Positions 1 to 35,380 of a stretch of 64,000 bases of DNA are shown here, piece by piece. The translations under genes were made by a program, and so were the position numbers. The stretch's first letter is position 1. Each line of letters starts with the position of its first letter. Below the pieces are notes generated by a model. The model was not told where the DNA came from. It saw only the letters and a program-made list of their open reading frames with translations, and made no database searches. Origin of the DNA: Bradyrhizobium liaoningense (GTDB taxonomy: Bacteria > Pseudomonadota > Alphaproteobacteria > Rhizobiales > Xanthobacteraceae); the NCBI RefSeq assembly GCF_018130955.1, contig NZ_JAFCJM010000028.1, positions 1-64,000 on the forward strand. The letters are read 5' to 3'.

Positions 1-98
1 GCCGCCACGCTCGAGGGCTATGCTCTTGCCACCCAAGAACAAAATCCGGGAATCCCCTAGCCCACAAGGGGAGAGGGTGCAGCAACTGCGTGGCGAAC

Positions 99-719
99 TT
101 AATCCCCCTTCGCCCCCTTCAACGCCGCAACCTCCGCCTCCAGCTCCGCGATCCGTTCATCGCGTTGGGCCAGCACTGCCGCGACATCCGCCGCATCAAA
201 CTTCTGCGGGATGTGCTGCGGGCAGTTGGTGTCCCAGGCCAAAATCTTGAACAGGACGACCTGCTCGGGCCGCGCCTTGTAGCCCCTGGGAAACAGCGAC
301 TGGACCAGCGCCGGATCGTCCTCGACCACGCGCGCCTCGCCCCAGATCTTCACGCGGCGGCGATGAGCGTAGTCCATGACGAAGATGTGGGCCTTGGCAT
401 TCTCCGACAGGTTGCCCTGCGTGAGGTATTGCCGGTTGCCGGCATAATCGGCGAAGGCGAGCGTCGACTTGTCCAGCACCTTCAGAAAGCCTTTTGGCCC
501 GCCGCGGTGCTGGATGTAGGGCTGGCCGTCGGCCGAGGCGGTGGCGAGATAGAAACTGCTGGCATCGGCCAGGAATGCGGCGAGGTTTTCGTCAACCTCG
601 GTGCGCCAGCCGCGCTGTTCGACATGCGCATAGGCCTCGCGCGAACCCTTTCGCGCTTGAACGGCCTTCACCGCGGGCGTGAAGGCGACATCGCTTGCAT
701 AAGTGATGGCGGACGTCAT
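99..719 (-). CDS. Pyridoxamine 5'-phosphate oxidase-like FMN-binding split-barrel protein
   Basis: The 206-residue product has the core of the flavin split-barrel family (a stretch around FYLATASADGQPYIQHRGG and FADYAGNRQY), which binds FMN and usually carries out oxidoreductase or quenching roles; the substrate is unknown. The C-terminal ~25 residues are a charged, heptad-like helix (RDERIAELEAEVAALKG), probably a short coiled coil. I chose the ATG at 719 over an upstream in-frame start at 812 because an AGGAGAAGG ribosome site lies just ahead of it and the family homology starts there. It diverges from the LysR gene at 842 across a 122-bp gap, so control by that regulator is likely (inference). 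Confidence 0.85.
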   Translation of the reverse strand: MTSAITYASDVAFTPAVKAVQARKGSREAYAHVEQRGWRTEVDENLAAFLADASSFYLATASADGQPYIQHRGGPKGFLKVLDKSTLAFADYAGNRQYLTQGNLSENAKAHIFVMDYAHRRRVKIWGEARVVEDDPALVQSLFPRGYKARPEQVVLFKILAWDTNCPQHIPQKFDAADVAAVLAQRDERIAELEAEVAALKGAKGD

Positions 720-819
720 CGGACCTTCTCCTGAAACTCCGGCGCGATTTTCGCGTCTTTCGGCACCTAAGATGCTCCCTCCCGATCTTAAAACAATCTG
801 CAGTCTTGACACTTCATCA

Positions 820-834
820 TTGCGATATATGCAA
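820..834. promoter_or_regulatory. Putative LysR operator (T-N11-A dyad)
   Basis: TTGC N7 GCAA forms a dyad between the divergent split-barrel and LysR genes, containing a T-N11-A (821 to 833). It starts 8 bp downstream of a TTGACA (806-811) and ends 7 bp before the LysR ATG. The placement fits autorepression and divergent control. This is seen in sequence; function is inferred. Confidence 0.4.
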
Positions 835-841
835 TAATGTC

Positions 842-1723
842 ATGGACCGTCTCGATGCCATGCGGGTCTTCGTCACAGTTGCCGATCTCAGCGGCTTTGC
901 GCCAGCGGCGCGCAAGCTGCGGCTGTCGCCGTCGGCGGTGACGCGGATGATTGCCGCGCTGGAAGAGCATCTCGGCGCGCGGCTGCTGCAGCGGACCACG
1001 CGATCGGTCACGTTGACCGATGTCGGCACGCGCTATCTCGAGCGCGCGCGGCGAATTCTCGCCGACGTCGAGGAGGCCGACAATTCGACGCGAGAGGAGC
1101 GCAACCGGCCGAGCGGACGGCTCGTGGTGTCAGCGCCCGTCGGCTTCGGCCGGCTCCATGTCGGCCCGGTAATGTCGGCCTATCTGAAGCGCTATCCCGA
1201 CGTGACCGGCGAGCTGCGGCTGTCGGATCATCTCATCAACCTCGTCGAGGACGCCGTCGACGTTGCGGTCAGGATCGGTCACCTCGCCGATTCCTCGCTG
1301 GTCGCGCGCCAGGTCGGCGAGATGCGGCGCATCGTGGTCGCCTCGCCTGACTATCTCAAGCGCCATGGCGAGCCGAAAGCGCCGGAAGAATTGCGCGCGC
1401 ACCAGGCCATCCAGTTCGGCCCGACGCCCTGGCACTTTGTCCGCGACAACAGCGACATCGAGGTGACGCCGGCCCCGCGCTTCACCAGCAACAGCGCCGA
1501 CGCCGTGCTGCAATACGCCGAACAAGGCGGCGGCGTGACGCGCGTGCTGGCCTATCAGGCCGCCGACGGGCTGAAGCGCGGACGGCTGAAGATCGTGCTT
1601 GCGAAGTATGAACAGCCCGCGCTGCCGGTCCATGTCGTCTATCCGACGTCGCGTCTGCTCTCCGCGAAAGTGCGGGCGTTCATCGATCTGGTGGTGGAGA
1701 GCACGAATTGGAAGTTCGGGTAG
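842..1723 (+). CDS. LysR-family transcriptional regulator
   Basis: The 293-residue product has an N-terminal winged helix-turn-helix (MDRLDAMRVFVTVADLSGF onward, with PSAVTRMIAALEEHLG as recognition helix region) and a periplasmic-binding-like effector domain. The overall pattern (RPSGRLVVSAPVGFGRLHVGP) matches the large CrgA/DsdC-like LysR subgroup that often controls a divergent oxidoreductase. The start is set at 842 rather than 806 because LysR proteins conventionally begin at this MDRLDAM motif. It most likely regulates the divergent split-barrel gene through the dyad just upstream. The effector is unknown. Confidence 0.92.
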   Translation: MDRLDAMRVFVTVADLSGFAPAARKLRLSPSAVTRMIAALEEHLGARLLQRTTRSVTLTDVGTRYLERARRILADVEEADNSTREERNRPSGRLVVSAPVGFGRLHVGPVMSAYLKRYPDVTGELRLSDHLINLVEDAVDVAVRIGHLADSSLVARQVGEMRRIVVASPDYLKRHGEPKAPEELRAHQAIQFGPTPWHFVRDNSDIEVTPAPRFTSNSADAVLQYAEQGGGVTRVLAYQAADGLKRGRLKIVLAKYEQPALPVHVVYPTSRLLSAKVRAFIDLVVESTNWKFG

Positions 1724-1737
1724 CTATCCCCTCTCCG

Positions 1738-1861
1738 TCATGGCCGGGCATAGTTGTCCGAAGGACGGCGTGGCTTCCGCTCGCCTATGTCCCGGCCATC
1801 CACGCGCCTCCATGCATGCGGCGCCAAAGACGTGGATGCCCGGGTCAAGCCCGGGCATGAC
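1738..1861. repeat. Palindromic intergenic repeat (GTCATGGCCGGGC family)
   Basis: The region between the LysR and thioesterase genes starts with GTCATGGCCGGGC and ends with a complementary GCCCGGGCATGAC, with further internal arms. It is a long imperfect hairpin with no coding signal, of the type scattered between genes in Bradyrhizobium. It lies between two convergent genes, where it could also end transcription. Confidence 0.7.
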
Positions 1862-1876
1862 GATGAGGGAGTGATG

Positions 1877-2296
1877 TCACCCCTTCTTCGGCACCACGCG
1901 AAACGTGCCGTTGGCGCGTGCGATCACGGCATCGTCGGCCTTGATCAGGCTCTGCGCGAAGCAGATCGTCGCGCCGGTCTTGATCACTTCGCTCTCGACC
2001 GCAAGCCACTGGCCTGTCTCGGCCGAGCCGATGAAATCGACCGCGAGCGAGATCGTCACGAAGGACGTGGTCCAGCCGGTCGCCTGCGCGCAGCTATAGC
2101 CCATCGCATTGTCGGCGAGGGACGCGATGAGCCCGCCATGGATCAGGCCGCGGGCATTCGTATGCGGCGTGGCCAGCCGCAATCCCATGACGACGGCTTT
2201 TTCGGTGCGCTTTGAATAGAGCGGCTCCCAGGGATCGGTGAGCGGGCTTTTGCGGAAATGCGGCTTGAAGCCATCGGGGATGTCGGTGGGTGTCAT
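1877..2296 (-). CDS. PaaI-type hotdog-fold thioesterase
   Basis: The 139-residue product is of normal length for a single-hotdog PaaI/YbgC-like thioesterase. It carries the signature NARGLIHGGLIASLADNAMG, in which the HGG segment and the following Asp form the usual active-site region, and a later TISLAVDFIGSA strand. Such enzymes hydrolyse aryl- or acyl-CoA thioesters, releasing stalled CoA intermediates. It stands alone, convergent with the LysR gene. The substrate cannot be read from sequence. Confidence 0.88.
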   Translation of the reverse strand: MTPTDIPDGFKPHFRKSPLTDPWEPLYSKRTEKAVVMGLRLATPHTNARGLIHGGLIASLADNAMGYSCAQATGWTTSFVTISLAVDFIGSAETGQWLAVESEVIKTGATICFAQSLIKADDAVIARANGTFRVVPKKG

Positions 2297-2707
2297 CTGT
2301 CGCTCGCGTTGAGTTCGCTACCGTCATTGAACGCGAACGACGTGACGGGTTCATCACGTACAAAGTTTTAAACGGGATTTGCGCGGACGTTTGAAACGCC
2401 CTGGCGGCTGTGCGCATAGCGAACAGCGCGCCGGTTACGCAGGGGTGACCATGCGTGCGACTTTTGTCGCACCTTCTCGGTTCACCTCACTGTACGGGCT
2501 CGCTTGTCGCCATCATCCGCCCGCGATACTTATGACCTATAACGTTTGGGCAGCGGGAGAACAGTTCGCCGCATCGCGACAAATCGGTGTCGGGTTAAGG
2601 GCGCGGGGCCGCCTGTTCCAGCTTGAACAAACGCGCCAATTATATAACATGTTAACTAACGAGACCGGGCCGACGAAGCCTGCGCTCACTAAAAGGGAGA
2701 GCCGTCG
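2297..2707. promoter_or_regulatory. Upstream region of the TRAP transporter genes
   Basis: This 411-bp non-coding stretch separates the divergent thioesterase and TRAP genes. I see no supported gene in it. An AT-rich patch near 2640-2656 contains the perfect 10-bp palindrome TAACATGTTA (2645-2654), about 53 bp before the binding-protein start. This would be a sensible place for an operator or promoter, possibly for a GntR- or IclR-type regulator encoded elsewhere (inference). Confidence 0.4.
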
Positions 2708-3724
2708 ATGAGGAAAGCGTGGTTGGCGTTGCTGGTGGCCGCCAGCGTGACGCCTGCGTTCGGGCAGGACAAGACCTTCGAGCTGAAGATCTCGCATTGG
2801 GTGCCGGCCTCGCACCCGCTGCAGAAATCGCTGGAAGACTGGGCTGCCGCGGTGGAGAAGGACTCCGGCGGCACCATCAAGAGCAAGGTCTTCCCGGCGC
2901 AGCAGCTCGGCAAGGCTTTTGACCATTACGACATGGCCCGCGACGGCATCGCCGACGTCACTTACGTCAATCCCGGCTATCAACCCGGCCGTTTCCCGAT
3001 CGTCGGTGCCGGCGAACTGCCGTTCCTGATCTCCGACGCCAAGGGCGGCTCGGCGGGGCTCGACGCCTGGTACCGCAAATATGCCGAGAAAGAGATGAAG
3101 GACGTCAAGTACTGTCTCGCCTTCGTCCACTCGCCCTCCTCCTTCCACTCCCGCACCAAGAAGATCGTGGTGCCGGAGGACGTCAAGGGCATGAAGATCC
3201 GCCCGGCGCACGCCACCATGGCGAACTTCGTGACCTCGCTCGGCGGCACCAATGTGCAGTCGTCCGCACCGGAAGTGCGCGACATCATCGAGCGCGGCGT
3301 CGCCGACGGCGTCACCTTCCCCTGGGGCTCGCTGCTTCTGTTCGGCATCGACAAGGTGACGAAGTACGACATGGAGGCGCCGCTCTACGTCACGACCTTC
3401 GTGTTCGTGATGAACAAGGACAAGTACAACTCGATGTCCGACAAGCAGAAGGCGGCGATCGACAAGAACTGCACGACCGAGATGGCCGGCGTCATCGGCG
3501 AGCACTGGGGCAAGTTCGAGGATGCCGGTATCGAGAAGATCAAGGCAGAATCCGGTCACGACGTCTACAAGCTGACACCGGAGCAGACCGCGCAGTGGAA
3601 GAAGGCCGCCGAGCCGCTGGTCAAGACCTGGGGCGACGGCGTGAAGAAGAACGGCGGCGATCCGGGTGCGGCGCTGACCGAACTGAAGGACTCGCTGAAG
3701 AAGTACAACGCACTCGCGGAGTAG
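2708..3724 (+). CDS. TRAP transporter substrate-binding protein (DctP family)
   Basis: The 338-residue periplasmic receptor has a signal peptide (about residues 1-19, ending AFG|QDK) and the DctP fold. Visible landmarks are ISHWVPASHPLQKSLEDWA near the N terminus, the EDVKGMKIRP segment holding the conserved carboxylate-binding Arg, and the FPWGSLLLFGIDKV region typical of the C4-dicarboxylate/aromatic-acid type. It delivers an organic acid to the membrane subunits encoded next. A 255-bp repeat-filled gap separates it from the small permease, so expression may be uncoupled. The ligand is unknown. Confidence 0.93.
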   Translation: MRKAWLALLVAASVTPAFGQDKTFELKISHWVPASHPLQKSLEDWAAAVEKDSGGTIKSKVFPAQQLGKAFDHYDMARDGIADVTYVNPGYQPGRFPIVGAGELPFLISDAKGGSAGLDAWYRKYAEKEMKDVKYCLAFVHSPSSFHSRTKKIVVPEDVKGMKIRPAHATMANFVTSLGGTNVQSSAPEVRDIIERGVADGVTFPWGSLLLFGIDKVTKYDMEAPLYVTTFVFVMNKDKYNSMSDKQKAAIDKNCTTEMAGVIGEHWGKFEDAGIEKIKAESGHDVYKLTPEQTAQWKKAAEPLVKTWGDGVKKNGGDPGAALTELKDSLKKYNALAE

Positions 3725-3751: not shown

Positions 3752-3926
3752 ACCCCCTCTCCCCGTTCTTACGGGGCCGCGACGAGCTTCGCTCGCGCTG
3801 AGAGGGTTGGGGTGAGGGGCTGCTTCCGCAACGATGGCGGCAGTTTGACTCGCGGAGAGTCCCCCTCACCCGAAATTCAAGCTCCGCTTGAATTTCGACC
3901 TCTCCCCGCAAGCGGGGCGAGGTGAA
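3752..3926. repeat. Paired palindromic repeat inside the TRAP gene cluster
   Basis: The gap between the binding protein and the small permease holds two inverted copies of a motif of the type CCTCTCCCCGCAAGCGGGG ... GGGTTGGGGTGAGGGG, with an inner arm AAATTCAAGC / GCTTGAATTT. It is the same family as the element at 5859-6000. It probably folds as mRNA and could lower expression of the permeases relative to the abundant binding protein (inference). Confidence 0.7.
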
Positions 3927-5808: not shown

Positions 5809-5858
5809 AAGTGACGCAGGGGACGAGACCACCCTGCAGCCCCGCCGGCGCTGCGCTC

Positions 5859-6000
5859 CCTCGCCCCGCTTGCGGGGAGAGGGTTGGGGTGAGGGGGAGC
5901 CTCCGCGAGGGACGGAGGCAGTTGGACTCGCGGAGGCTCCCCCTCACCCGGAATTCAAGCGATGCTTGAATTCCGGCCTCTCCCCGCAAGCGGGGCGAGG
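5859..6000. repeat. MITE-like element with 24-bp perfect terminal inverted repeats
   Basis: Bases 5859-5882 and 5977-6000 are exact inverted copies of each other (CCTCGCCCCGCTTGCGGGG followed by AGAGG). They enclose further nested palindromes including GGAATTCAAGC / GCTTGAATTCC. The 142-bp unit has no coding capacity. It sits between the large TRAP permease and the DUF3237 gene and matches the family at 3752-3926. Confidence 0.75.
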
Positions 6001-6040
6001 CGAAAAGGCCGCGCCACCTAATTGCACGACAGAGATCACT

Positions 6041-6499
6041 ATGACCCCCACCCTCGAGACCAAATACGTCTTCACCATCACCGCGCACATCGGCAACGTC
6101 ACCAGCGCCGGCGATATCGGCACCGGCGTCCGCCGCATCATCCCGATCGTCGGCGGCGAGGTGAAAGGCACGATCAACGGCAAGGTGCTGCCGTTCGGCG
6201 CCGACTTCCAGATCATCCGCCCCAACGAACTGATCGAGCTCGAAGCCAAATACGCCTTCGAGACCGACGACGGCGCCACCGTCTATGTCGAGAACAAGGG
6301 GCTTCGCTTCGGCCCCGTAGATCTGCTGCAAAAGCTCAAGCGCGGCGAGCCGGTCGATCCCAAGCTGATCTACTTTCGCACCGTGCCGAAGTTCGAGACC
6401 GGGCACGAAAAGTACCGCTGGCTGATGGAGCATATCTTCGTGGCGTCCGCAGCACGGCACGCCGATCGCGTCGTGATCGATGTGCATCAGGTGATGTGA
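6041..6499 (+). CDS. DUF3237 domain protein
   Basis: The 152-residue protein matches the DUF3237 beta-barrel family: GNVTSAGDIGTGVRRIIPIVGG near the N terminus, VLPFGADFQIIRPN and the C-terminal YFRTVPKFETG. The molecular function of the family is not established, but its genes often lie beside aromatic or dicarboxylate catabolism and transport genes, as here next to a TRAP system. The ATG at 6041 starts the conserved domain. The upstream open frame is translated repeat DNA. Confidence 0.85.
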   Translation: MTPTLETKYVFTITAHIGNVTSAGDIGTGVRRIIPIVGGEVKGTINGKVLPFGADFQIIRPNELIELEAKYAFETDDGATVYVENKGLRFGPVDLLQKLKRGEPVDPKLIYFRTVPKFETGHEKYRWLMEHIFVASAARHADRVVIDVHQVM

Positions 6500-12581: not shown

Positions 12582-12672
12582 GGCTCTGAAATCGAGCCGC
12601 GACCCCGGATGTCGCTGCGCCCCCTCTCCCGCAAGCGGGAGAGGTGCAGCGAGCCCGCGGATGCGCCGAGCG

Positions 12673-27165: not shown

Positions 27166-27227
27166 CTTACCCTCCCCTGGAGGGGGTTCGCTTTGAGCGC
27201 AGCGAAATGCGAAGCGGGGTGGGGTGA
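27166..27227. repeat. Left inverted repeat flanking the DUF559 gene
   Basis: It begins CTTACCCTCCCCTGG, passes AGCGCAGCGAAATGCGAAGC and ends GGGGTGGGGTGA. The copy at 27638-27703 is the same unit inverted. Only 4 bp separate it from the DUF559 stop codon. Confidence 0.85.
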
Positions 27228-27231
27228 CAGT

Positions 27232-27627
27232 CTATCGTCGTCGGCGGTGCTTCAATGGCGTCGCTTCAGCCCCGAGGGAACCGTACAGTTCTGCGTAAAC
27301 GCGCTCCAGCACTGCCGTCATGTCCTCGACGATCTCTGAATTCCAGAACCGGAGGACGCGATAGCCCTCGCTCTCGAGCCATGACTGCCGCTCGCGATCC
27401 CTGGCAGCATTCTTGTCCTCGTTATGGTGCCCACCATCGAGCTCGATGATCAGGCGCTTGGCATGACAGAAAAAGTCAACGACATACGGACCAATTGGCA
27501 CCTGCCGCCGAAAGTGCGTCCCTTCACTCGGAATTTCCTTCAGCGCGCGCCACAATAGACGCTCATGGGGCGTCGTGTTAGCGCGCAGCTTCTTCGCGGC
27601 TGCCCGGCGAATCGATGTCGAGACCAT
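27232..27627 (-). CDS. DUF559 endonuclease-domain protein
   Basis: The 131-residue protein is a complete DUF559 / Vsr-like (PD-(D/E)XK) nuclease-fold domain. It shows LRANTTPHERLLWRALK, FRRQVPIGPYVVDFFCHAKRLIIELDGGHH (the motif holding catalytic Asp and Glu), DRERQSWLESEGYRVLRFWN and a final helix. The family resembles very-short-patch repair nucleases, but its physiological substrate is not established. The gene fills the space between two inverted repeats, with 4 bp and 10 bp margins. I start it at 27627 because the longer frame to 27711 is translated repeat DNA. Confidence 0.9.
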   Translation of the reverse strand: MVSTSIRRAAAKKLRANTTPHERLLWRALKEIPSEGTHFRRQVPIGPYVVDFFCHAKRLIIELDGGHHNEDKNAARDRERQSWLESEGYRVLRFWNSEIVEDMTAVLERVYAELYGSLGAEATPLKHRRRR

Positions 27628-27637
27628 CTTTGTGGCT

Positions 27638-27703
27638 TCACCCCACCCCGCTACGCATTCCGCTTCGCGCAATGCGTAGCGACCCTCCCCAGGGGAGGGT
27701 AAG
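27638..27703. repeat. Right inverted repeat flanking the DUF559 gene
   Basis: It is the inverted counterpart of 27166-27227, starting TCACCCCACCCCG and ending GGGGAGGGTAAG. The inner loop differs (CTACGCATTCCGCTTCGCG), so the two copies are related but not identical. Confidence 0.85.
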
Positions 27704-31213: not shown

Positions 31214-31228
31214 GACGATGTCCTTCGC

Positions 31229-32356
31229 TTACGCCGCGTTCTTCTTGCGCATGCGGTCGATCAACTGGTCTTCCCAATAGGACAGGCTGCCGAGGCCGAG
31301 CGCCATGGCGTTGGCACGGCGATAGTACATGTGGCAGTCGAACTCCCAGGTGAAACCCATGCCGCCGTGAACCTGGATGTTGTTCTTGGCGCAGTGCTGG
31401 AACGCCTGCGTCGCGCTGATGCGCGCGGCGGCCGCGGCCTCCGGCAATTCCGACGCGTTGGTCGAGAGCGCCCAGGCGCCATAGTAGCTGTTGGAGCGCG
31501 CCAAGGTCGCCGAGACATACATATCCGCGAGCATGTGCTTGACCGCCTGGAACGAGCCGATCGGACGACCGAAGGCGATGCGGTCGAGCGCGTAGTCGCG
31601 GCCCATTTCCAGCGCGCGGTCGGAGCCACCGACCTGCTCGAAGGCGCAGAGCACGGCGGCACGATCGAGCACCTGCGAAAGAATGCTCCAGCCTTCGCCG
31701 GCCGCGCCCAGCGGCTCGGCCTTGCAATTCTTGAAGGTCAGCTCGGCCTGGCCGCGGGTCGGATCGAGATTGGTCAGGCTCTTCACCTCGACGCCGCCGG
31801 CCCTGAGATCGACGAGGAACAGCGAGATGTCGCCATCGCGTCCGCCCGAGCCAGTGCGTGCAGCAACCACCGCGAAATCGGCAATCGCAGCATCGGGCAC
31901 CGGTTTCTTCACGCCGTTGAGCGTGCCGCCCGATGCCGCGAGCTTGATGTTCTTCGGCGACGGATTGCCCTTGCCCTCGAACAACGCCAGCGTGCCGATC
32001 GCCTCGCCGGAGGCGATCGCGGGCAGCCACTTTTTCTTCTGCGCGTCACTGCCGGCGATCAGCAGCGCTTCGGCTGCGAGATACACGGTGGAGGAGAACG
32101 GCACCGGCGCATTGGCGCGGCCCATTTCCTCGGCGATCACGCACAGCTCGAGATGGCCGGCGCCCGCGCCGCCGAACTCCTCGGGGATCGCGACGCCGAG
32201 AAAACCCATCTCGGCGAGGCCCTTCCAGAGCTCCTTGTCATAGGGCGCCTTGCCGTCGAGCACGACACGCACCGCCTTGGGCGAGCATTTTTCGGCCAGG
32301 AATTTTCGCGCCTGATCACGGAGCTGCTTTTGGTCGTCAGAGAAATCGAAATTCAT
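31229..32356 (-). CDS. Acyl-CoA dehydrogenase, short type (module II, copy C)
   Basis: The 375-residue protein is shorter and more divergent than copies A and B: FDFSDDQKQLRDQARKFLAEK, FEQVGGSDRALEMGRDYALDRIAFGRPIGSFQ and QVHGGMGFTWEFDCHMYYRRA at the C terminus. It lacks the WCQLFSEP-type FAD segment, showing ASGEAIGTLALFEGKGNP instead. It may therefore be the partner subunit of a heteromeric dehydrogenase. The ATG at 32356 is used; a GTG at 32365 is possible. A palindromic repeat separates it from the ligase gene upstream. Confidence 0.92.
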   Translation of the reverse strand: MNFDFSDDQKQLRDQARKFLAEKCSPKAVRVVLDGKAPYDKELWKGLAEMGFLGVAIPEEFGGAGAGHLELCVIAEEMGRANAPVPFSSTVYLAAEALLIAGSDAQKKKWLPAIASGEAIGTLALFEGKGNPSPKNIKLAASGGTLNGVKKPVPDAAIADFAVVAARTGSGGRDGDISLFLVDLRAGGVEVKSLTNLDPTRGQAELTFKNCKAEPLGAAGEGWSILSQVLDRAAVLCAFEQVGGSDRALEMGRDYALDRIAFGRPIGSFQAVKHMLADMYVSATLARSNSYYGAWALSTNASELPEAAAAARISATQAFQHCAKNNIQVHGGMGFTWEFDCHMYYRRANAMALGLGSLSYWEDQLIDRMRKKNAA

Positions 32357-35185: not shown

Positions 35186-35222
35186 GCGAGCCTCGTGCCT
35201 TCGTGCCACGCGGTGACCGTCT

Positions 35223-35280
35223 CCCACCCTCCCCTGGAGGGGGAGGGTCGATCGCGCGCAGCGCGAGCGGGGTGGGGTGA
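35223..35280. repeat. Repeat of the DUF559-flanking family, gene-less pair, left copy
   Basis: It reads CCCACCCTCCCCTGGAGGGG through GCGCAGCGCGAGCGGGGTGGGGTGA, the same unit as 27166-27227 in the same orientation. It pairs with the inverted copy 37 bp downstream. Confidence 0.8.
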
Positions 35281-35317
35281 AGGTGTTTCCCCATCGAATA
35301 GCGCCCGAGTGGAGAGA

Positions 35318-35369
35318 TCACCCCACCCCGGCGCTTCGCGCCGACCCTCCCCCTCCAGGGGAGGGTAAG
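35318..35369. repeat. Repeat of the DUF559-flanking family, gene-less pair, right copy
   Basis: It starts TCACCCCACCCCGGCGCTTCG and ends AGGGGAGGGTAAG, the inverted partner of 35223-35280. The pair encloses only 37 bp, against 410 bp with the DUF559 gene at 27.2-27.7 kb. Confidence 0.8.
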
Positions 35370-35380
35370 AGGAGAGCGCC

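Follow-up and report, generated by a model that had tools for sequence, protein, structure and literature searches.

In REPIN/RAYT systems (REPtrons), a small gene encoding an HUH Y1 transposase lies between inverted palindromic units that carry a GTAG/GTGG tag, gene-less inverted doublets of the units occur genome-wide in many copies, and each gene has its cognate repeat subtype. CGTC-tagged REPs are frequent in alphaproteobacteria and have been reported to show no association with transposase genes (PMC3733652). Holder et al. (2015; PMC4666352) described an intrastrand triplex motif (TM/PIT) with 23 copies in E. coli K-12 and occurrences in >260 genomes. They reported five inverted K-12 doublets, each combining both loop types, and excess instability, and they found neither a mobile-element association nor a common class of neighboring gene. 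On the protein side, YcjD has been assigned to the PD-(D/E)XK superfamily and its profile detects Vsr (PMC1189080), and the Caulobacter DUF559 protein VsrA has a reported functional link with a solitary cytosine methyltransferase (PMC12907096). A link between DUF559 and palindromic repeats is absent from the relevant passages of PMC12907096, PMC12308824, and PMC9403480, and we found no earlier report of one in the literature searched, which was limited to open-licence papers.

The locus described here meets two REPIN/RAYT criteria, a small gene between inverted palindromic units and many gene-less doublets across the genome, and it shares the cognate repeat subtype for each gene. Two further criteria are unmet: its gene encodes a PD-(D/E)XK nuclease rather than an HUH Y1 transposase, and its unit lacks the GTAG/GTGG tag and includes a third mirror arm.

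Structure of the locus

We analyzed a 64,000-nucleotide stretch of Bradyrhizobium liaoningense DNA (here, the window), in which a 396-bp DUF559 gene lies inside a 538-bp block (27166 to 27703) that we inspected directly at sequence level (Table 1). We read a 131-aa ORF that starts with the ATG at 27627 and whose stop codon ends at 27232; an automated ORF list gives a longer start. The protein matches the DUF559 domain with E=2.5e-36. A gap of 4 bp separates the ORF from the end of the left unit at 27227, and one of 10 bp separates the ATG from the start of the right unit at 27638. One pair of inverted arms (27189-27227/27638-27676) spans 39 nt with 87% complementarity, and a second pair (27159-27187/27682-27710) spans 29 nt with 86%. 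The left unit is more degenerate than the right one and folds weakly on its own (z -1.8), and the right unit forms two successive hairpins in single-stranded DNA (fold z -8.0). The original prediction, made from sequence alone, had described this geometry as a 396-bp gene with gaps of 4 bp and 10 bp to one unit in opposite orientations, and it held.

Table 1. Features of the window discussed in the text
Feature	Coordinates	Strand	Remarks
Left repeat unit	27166..27227	+	Palindrome ACCCTCCCCTGGAGGGGGT at 27169-27187, second hairpin, G-rich third arm GGGGTGGGGTGA at 27216-27227
DUF559 nuclease gene	27232..27627	-	131 aa, predicted Vsr / I-Bth0305I-like PD-(D/E)XK fold
Right repeat unit	27638..27703	-	Built as the left unit, opposite orientation
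Gene-less inverted doublet of the window-block unit, 37-bp spacer	35223..35369		Single-strand DNA fold z -11
Segment with gene-less doublet of sister repeat type (units 5856-5896 and another ending at 6000)	5817..6044		Absent from relative G475
Lone palindrome	12620..12644		Relative G471 has a full doublet there; probable collapse scar

Framing of DUF559 genes in other genomes

To score framing, we aligned the left flank of each gene locally against the reverse-complemented right flank and counted a score of ≥34 as a pass; this threshold was set after a first cross-locus flank comparison and left unchanged thereafter. The window locus scores 79. Within the window's phylum, 101 of 141 DUF559 loci passed, compared to 10 of 1027 shifted windows, and a stricter cut of ≥40 retained 94 of the 141 loci and 4 of the 1027 windows. 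Gene-aligned controls, for which we used the ends of the other ORFs of these loci, passed in just 8 of 727 cases, and on this basis terminator hairpins were rejected as the cause of the framing. We also considered pairing flanks across loci as a null (3.8% of 1122 pairs scored ≥50), which was dropped in favor of the shifted and gene-aligned windows because the units resemble one another between species.

The 141 loci are a non-random sample of a single phylum, made up of the five of the window genome, 56 best matches, and 80 further high-scoring places. They include syntenic orthologues (for example, L001/L064; L004/L053/L147; L045/L059/L079/L101); therefore, they are not independent, and these orthologues appear to have been inherited, not to have moved. 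A search of a named GTDB sample with a six-sequence alignment, three members of which are flanked, returned 80 loci; five near a locus end were skipped, and 59 of the 75 scored loci passed (shifted windows, 5/903). Loci outside Pseudomonadota that passed were found in Chloroflexi (L264, L265, L300), Gastranaerophilales (L290, L302, L333), Planctomycetota (L307, L315), and Desulfobacterales (L313), while loci of Trichlorobacter (L319, score 31) and Nitrospirae (L322, score 32) stayed below the threshold. Of two additional loci, L368 passed (111) and L367 failed (26). It is very likely that the association between DUF559 genes and repeats is real and general.

Framing is not universal, as 40 of the 141 loci and 16 of the 75 scored <34. 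The unframed loci do not form a clade of their own: with the ≥40 label, and with L005 and L171 left out of the tree, they are scattered on the protein tree, with 50 changes compared to a null mean of 53.7 (49 of 500 shuffles gave as few). Four named records (two E. coli, one gonococcal, one Klebsiella) failed with scores of 14 to 20, and the Klebsiella copy appears broken. The E. coli member of the family is ycjD; of 5426 genomes queried with 611 bases around this gene, 3320 contain ≥80% of the query. The MG1655 gene has sapF and fabI as its neighbors, and its triplex-like units, of which one is intact and two look decayed, are confined to the 3′ side; the gonococcal homologue is flanked on each side by units that share one orientation. 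Both of these descriptions were made by eye. Separately, in E. coli SE15 and 95-3192 (L363, L364), an MFS transporter gene and an outer-membrane efflux gene follow sapF, in the place that ycjD has in most E. coli genomes.

Identity of the flanking repeats

The units that flank DUF559 genes are the known TM/PIT repeats. The commonest unit consists of a C-arm, a loop, a G-arm, an optional second hairpin, and a third G-rich arm (e.g., CCCTCTCCC..GGGAGAGGG..GGGTGAGGG), and the most frequent third arms are GGGTGAGGG, GGGAGAGGG, and similar sequences. A usable stem was available in 227 of 304 flank arms. The purine-motif triplex code was perfect in mirror orientation in 132 of these 227 units, compared to 4.2 expected from shuffles, and perfect as a direct repeat in 73. 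Where the arms are asymmetric, the mirror reading was superior in 54 loci and the direct reading in 15, with 33 ties. This mirror-orientation test superseded a reading of the third arm as a simple copy of the G-arm (99/227 within one mismatch, 26.7 expected).

The units resemble TM/PIT as published in their C-arm, G-arm, and third G-rich arm, in their inverted doublets of two loop types, and in the associated genome instability. They differ in that the published repeats had no reported link to mobile elements or to a common class of flanking gene, whereas here the majority of tested DUF559 genes are framed. CGTC-tagged REPs are likewise palindromic but differ in sequence from the flanking units, and they were rejected as the partner repeat (0/304 flank arms). 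Other palindromes frame some loci, such as L074/L134 and L293; the last of these, a DUF559 gene of Legionella anisa, has very long inverted flanks of a different sequence type (score 252).

Co-occurrence of repeats and DUF559 genes

We compared 299 genomes of the window's phylum without correction for phylogeny. The pattern GGGAGAGGGN{1,4}GGGTGAGGG reached ≥5 copies in 36 of the 77 genomes with a strong DUF559 match versus 9 of the 222 without one; the reversed pattern was found once. When the comparison was confined to 12 genera with mixed status, at least one copy was present in 15 of 22 genomes with DUF559 versus 7 of 62 without (permutation p 1e-4). Nine genomes had ≥5 repeats but no strong DUF559 match, including one with 139 repeats; in one of the nine, G077, a DUF559 gene in two pieces lies between two same-orientation motif matches. 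Calls of DUF559 absence may include false negatives, because MG1655 carries ycjD yet E. coli is unlisted for PF04480.

Repeat subtype also tends to follow the local gene. Another repeat was present in 35 of 104 long stretches, and when the local gene's arms were ranked against those of 40 other loci, they reached a rank of ≥0.975 in 19 (mean rank 0.85). The more similar two proteins are, the more similar their repeats tend to be, but the correlation is weak (rho 0.20, against a maximum of 0.116 and an sd of 0.048 in 500 permutations).

Gene-less copies in the window genome

The third arm GGGGTGGGGTGA has 33 exact matches in the window genome and 87 at one mismatch, versus 29 for the reversed control pattern. 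These matches include 13 exact/exact inverted pairs, or 16 with one mismatch permitted on one side, spaced 48 to 53 bp start to start; the doublet at 35223-35369 is one of these. Because this spacing has no room for a gene, the 13 to 16 doublets are gene-less; the single gene-wide pair is the one around DUF559. A probable further doublet of the sister type lies at approximately 3800-3925 of the window, with GGGTTGGGGTGA as one arm (3804) and, at 3899-3922, a unit identical to 5977-6000.

This genome has three further strong DUF559 genes, each within an inverted pair different from that of the window block; the pairs of L001 and L004 are related to each other, and that of L002 is distinct. A pattern derived from L002 has 12 matches in the genome, its own two included, and a joint L001 and L004 pattern has 39 at ≤1 mismatch (reversed control, 1). 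The fifth and weaker DUF559 match, L005, has no flanking pair.

Fourteen doublets of the window genome match, with variation, both inner edges of the gene-bearing blocks L160 and L170. These edges are GACRGTCTMTC on the stop side, which includes the DUF559 stop codon, and GATCTMTC on the start side; some doublets deviate, and the blocks of the window and of G475 retain the stop-side edge only. With L160 and L170, the criterion for a MITE-type relationship, that is, gene-less copies having both ends of a gene-bearing copy, is met. The two forms likely belong to one family, although the direction of conversion is unproven because insertion of a gene into a doublet would also yield matching edges.

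A search for an Rfam identity of the doublet gave only sub-threshold plant-miRNA hairpin models. MIR1858, MIR1437, and MIR8670 match the doublet at 35218-35373 over their full length and far under their gathering scores; these may be generic matches to GC-rich long hairpins, or there may be seed content of interest.

Indications of mobility

In genome G071, one 499-bp block is present at two sites with 93.6% identity through both units, and the homology stops at the outer palindromes, with none outside. This block has 106 matches in the genome, of which two are whole and the others seen touch only the block ends. A second pair of blocks, in G331, shows 86% identity across 589 bp.

We searched 98 genomes for the window site. 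Five genomes with both flanks side by side were compared; elsewhere, the flanking genes were often far apart or on separate contigs. The site lacks the block in G455, G471, G522, and G446, and in G475 (flanks approximately 90% identical) it carries an intact block in the opposite orientation that is 75% identical. Both presence/absence and inversion are thus shown for a single site. In G522, a CGTCATTGCGAGCG-type (CGTC) REP pair occupies the orthologous intergenic site (L190).

Gene-less doublets in the 64-kb surroundings also vary among relatives, as judged from fetched stretches of four relatives rather than whole genomes. One sister-type doublet of the window is missing in G475, and a window-type doublet of G475 is missing from the window, which has a different repeat at that point. 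The lone palindrome in Table 1 resembles the collapsed remnant of the doublet retained in G471. As a separate observation, G475, G455, and G522 carry approximately 1.47 to 1.49 kb extra at window position 31217-31233.

Because the relatives are just 85 to 91% identical, junctions are blurred and gain cannot be distinguished from loss. By eye, we recognized no target-site duplications between relatives this distant, and no strain-level insertion was seen among those compared.

The DUF559 protein

An AlphaFold model of the protein (pLDDT 85) matches 3HRL (Z 15.2), the homing endonuclease I-Bth0305I (3R3P; Z 13.5, 95 residues, rmsd 2.7; phmmer E 1.6e-4), and Vsr (Z 11.1). On this predicted model, the criterion of a Vsr-like catalytic fold as in EDxHD homing endonucleases is met. 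Residues invariant over 47 homologues include E22, D51, E62, D64, and H68. The gene is under purifying selection, with dN/dS of approximately 0.05 to 0.11 in six usable pairs (the L074/L134 value was excluded as mis-framed, and G475 was outside the tree and dN/dS set). A Pfam scan returned solely DUF559 and MTES_1575. PADLOC matches were all weak, including one to its homing-endonuclease model (E 9.5e-07, 26.7 bits).

The protein resembles EDxHD homing endonucleases such as I-Bth0305I in the fold and sequence of the nuclease domain; it differs in being a single small domain, with multi-copy palindromic repeats as the ends of its block. It also resembles the very short patch repair endonuclease Vsr in fold, but its score against the NCBIfam vsr model (24 bits) does not meet the cut-off of 97.85.

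Discussion

We favor, by a modest margin, a two-tier element resembling REPIN/RAYT, with the 538-bp block as its gene-bearing form; cleavage and transposition are inferred, with no assay. The framing, the multi-copy gene-less relatives, and the shared edges are established, as is the presence of one block at two sites. The sole gene of the block encodes a small Vsr/EDxHD-type PD-(D/E)XK nuclease, and the ends of the block are two inverted TM/PIT units. The nuclease would recognize its cognate unit, either as duplex or as a single-strand fold-back at forks, and nick there, and repair or replication would then copy the entire block or a gene-less doublet into further intergenic sites. On this view, doublets without the gene would be non-autonomous derivatives, similar to MITEs or REPINs, that are maintained in trans. 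Because the terminal palindromes are self-complementary, the ends double as direct repeats, and a block or doublet may collapse to one palindrome. All of these steps, from recognition and cleavage to copying and collapse, are inferences. A Legionella study, in which a transposase/DUF559 segment in three copies formed recombination hotspots, fits a reading as an element.

We considered three other explanations. The first is that the DUF559 gene is a homing endonuclease, a parasite that cuts triplex doublets and places its own copies in the spacers, while the repeats spread by other means. In its favor, I-Bth0305I is the nearest solved relative after 3HRL, the PADLOC homing-endonuclease model matches, and the gene-less doublets, with their matching edges, resemble a possible empty target. 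Against it, the two G071 copies agree across both units, including the hairpins, as if moved whole, although gene conversion of a pre-existing doublet is not excluded. In addition, the homology that doublet spacers share with the gene edge seemingly extends beyond the stop codon to a few coding bases, as judged by eye, and repeat copy number tracks the DUF559 gene between genomes. We regard homing as unlikely.

Less likely still, and in our view very unlikely, is a host Vsr-like mismatch-repair nuclease beside whose expendable gene repeats pile up. The Vsr fold and the tie of Caulobacter VsrA to a cytosine methyltransferase support it, but it is opposed by two-sided framing with one matching subtype far in excess of gene-aligned controls, by the duplicated G071 block, and by the low vsr model score.

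A Y1 (RAYT/TIRYT) transposase that moves the repeats with DUF559 as passenger is all but excluded: the layout is REPIN-like and the TIRYT motif GGGGWSAS is similar to the third arm (PMC3733652), but 8 of 16 genomes searched have no Y1_Tnp match, six of those with DUF559, which largely rules out a hidden Y1 mover for G071, G301, G023, G063 (repeat-bearing by flank units only), G136, and G202, and the 7 of 19 Y1 loci with a flank pair scoring ≥34 have GTAG-type REPs (six, the window genome's own locus among them) or another repeat (L256), with the triplex pattern within 1.5 kb of none of the 19. The window genome itself contains a weak Y1 match framed by GTAG REPs (L249, G000:C1:18308-18643), a classical REPtron alongside the DUF559 system.

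The original prediction had read the block as a minimal mobile unit analogous to REP-associated transposases. The mobile-unit reading is supported, and the analogy is a close match with respect to inverted unit pairs, gene-less doublets, and a cognate repeat for each gene. The prediction would have been undermined if DUF559 genes elsewhere lacked such flanks or if relatives had no empty sites; both outcomes were favorable, as most tested genes are framed and related genomes have the site without the block. Cutting of the repeat by the protein, and spread as a consequence of that cutting, are still inferred. The prediction did not foresee that the repeats are a published family, that the association spans several phyla, or that gene-less doublets have both edges in common with related gene-bearing blocks.

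Because most relatives tested are framed alike and gene-less copies are scattered in the genome, the DUF559 enzyme is probably the spreader of TM/PIT repeats. A bolder version of the two-tier reading, which we can neither favor nor discount, is that these blocks are a separate class of selfish element, in which a lone Vsr/EDxHD nuclease recognizes a triplex or fold-back at its own ends and drives TM/PIT repeats. Whether its reach extends to the hundreds of bacterial genomes with TM/PIT, including E. coli K-12 with YcjD, is just as finely balanced, and it is possible, but a guess, that the nuclease recognizes the triplex fold as such.

The TM/PIT link gives a widespread nuclease family of unknown function a candidate role, and it gives a repeat family of previously unknown origin a candidate spreader in DUF559. 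If this is true, the REPIN/RAYT life style would have arisen also with an unrelated nuclease fold.
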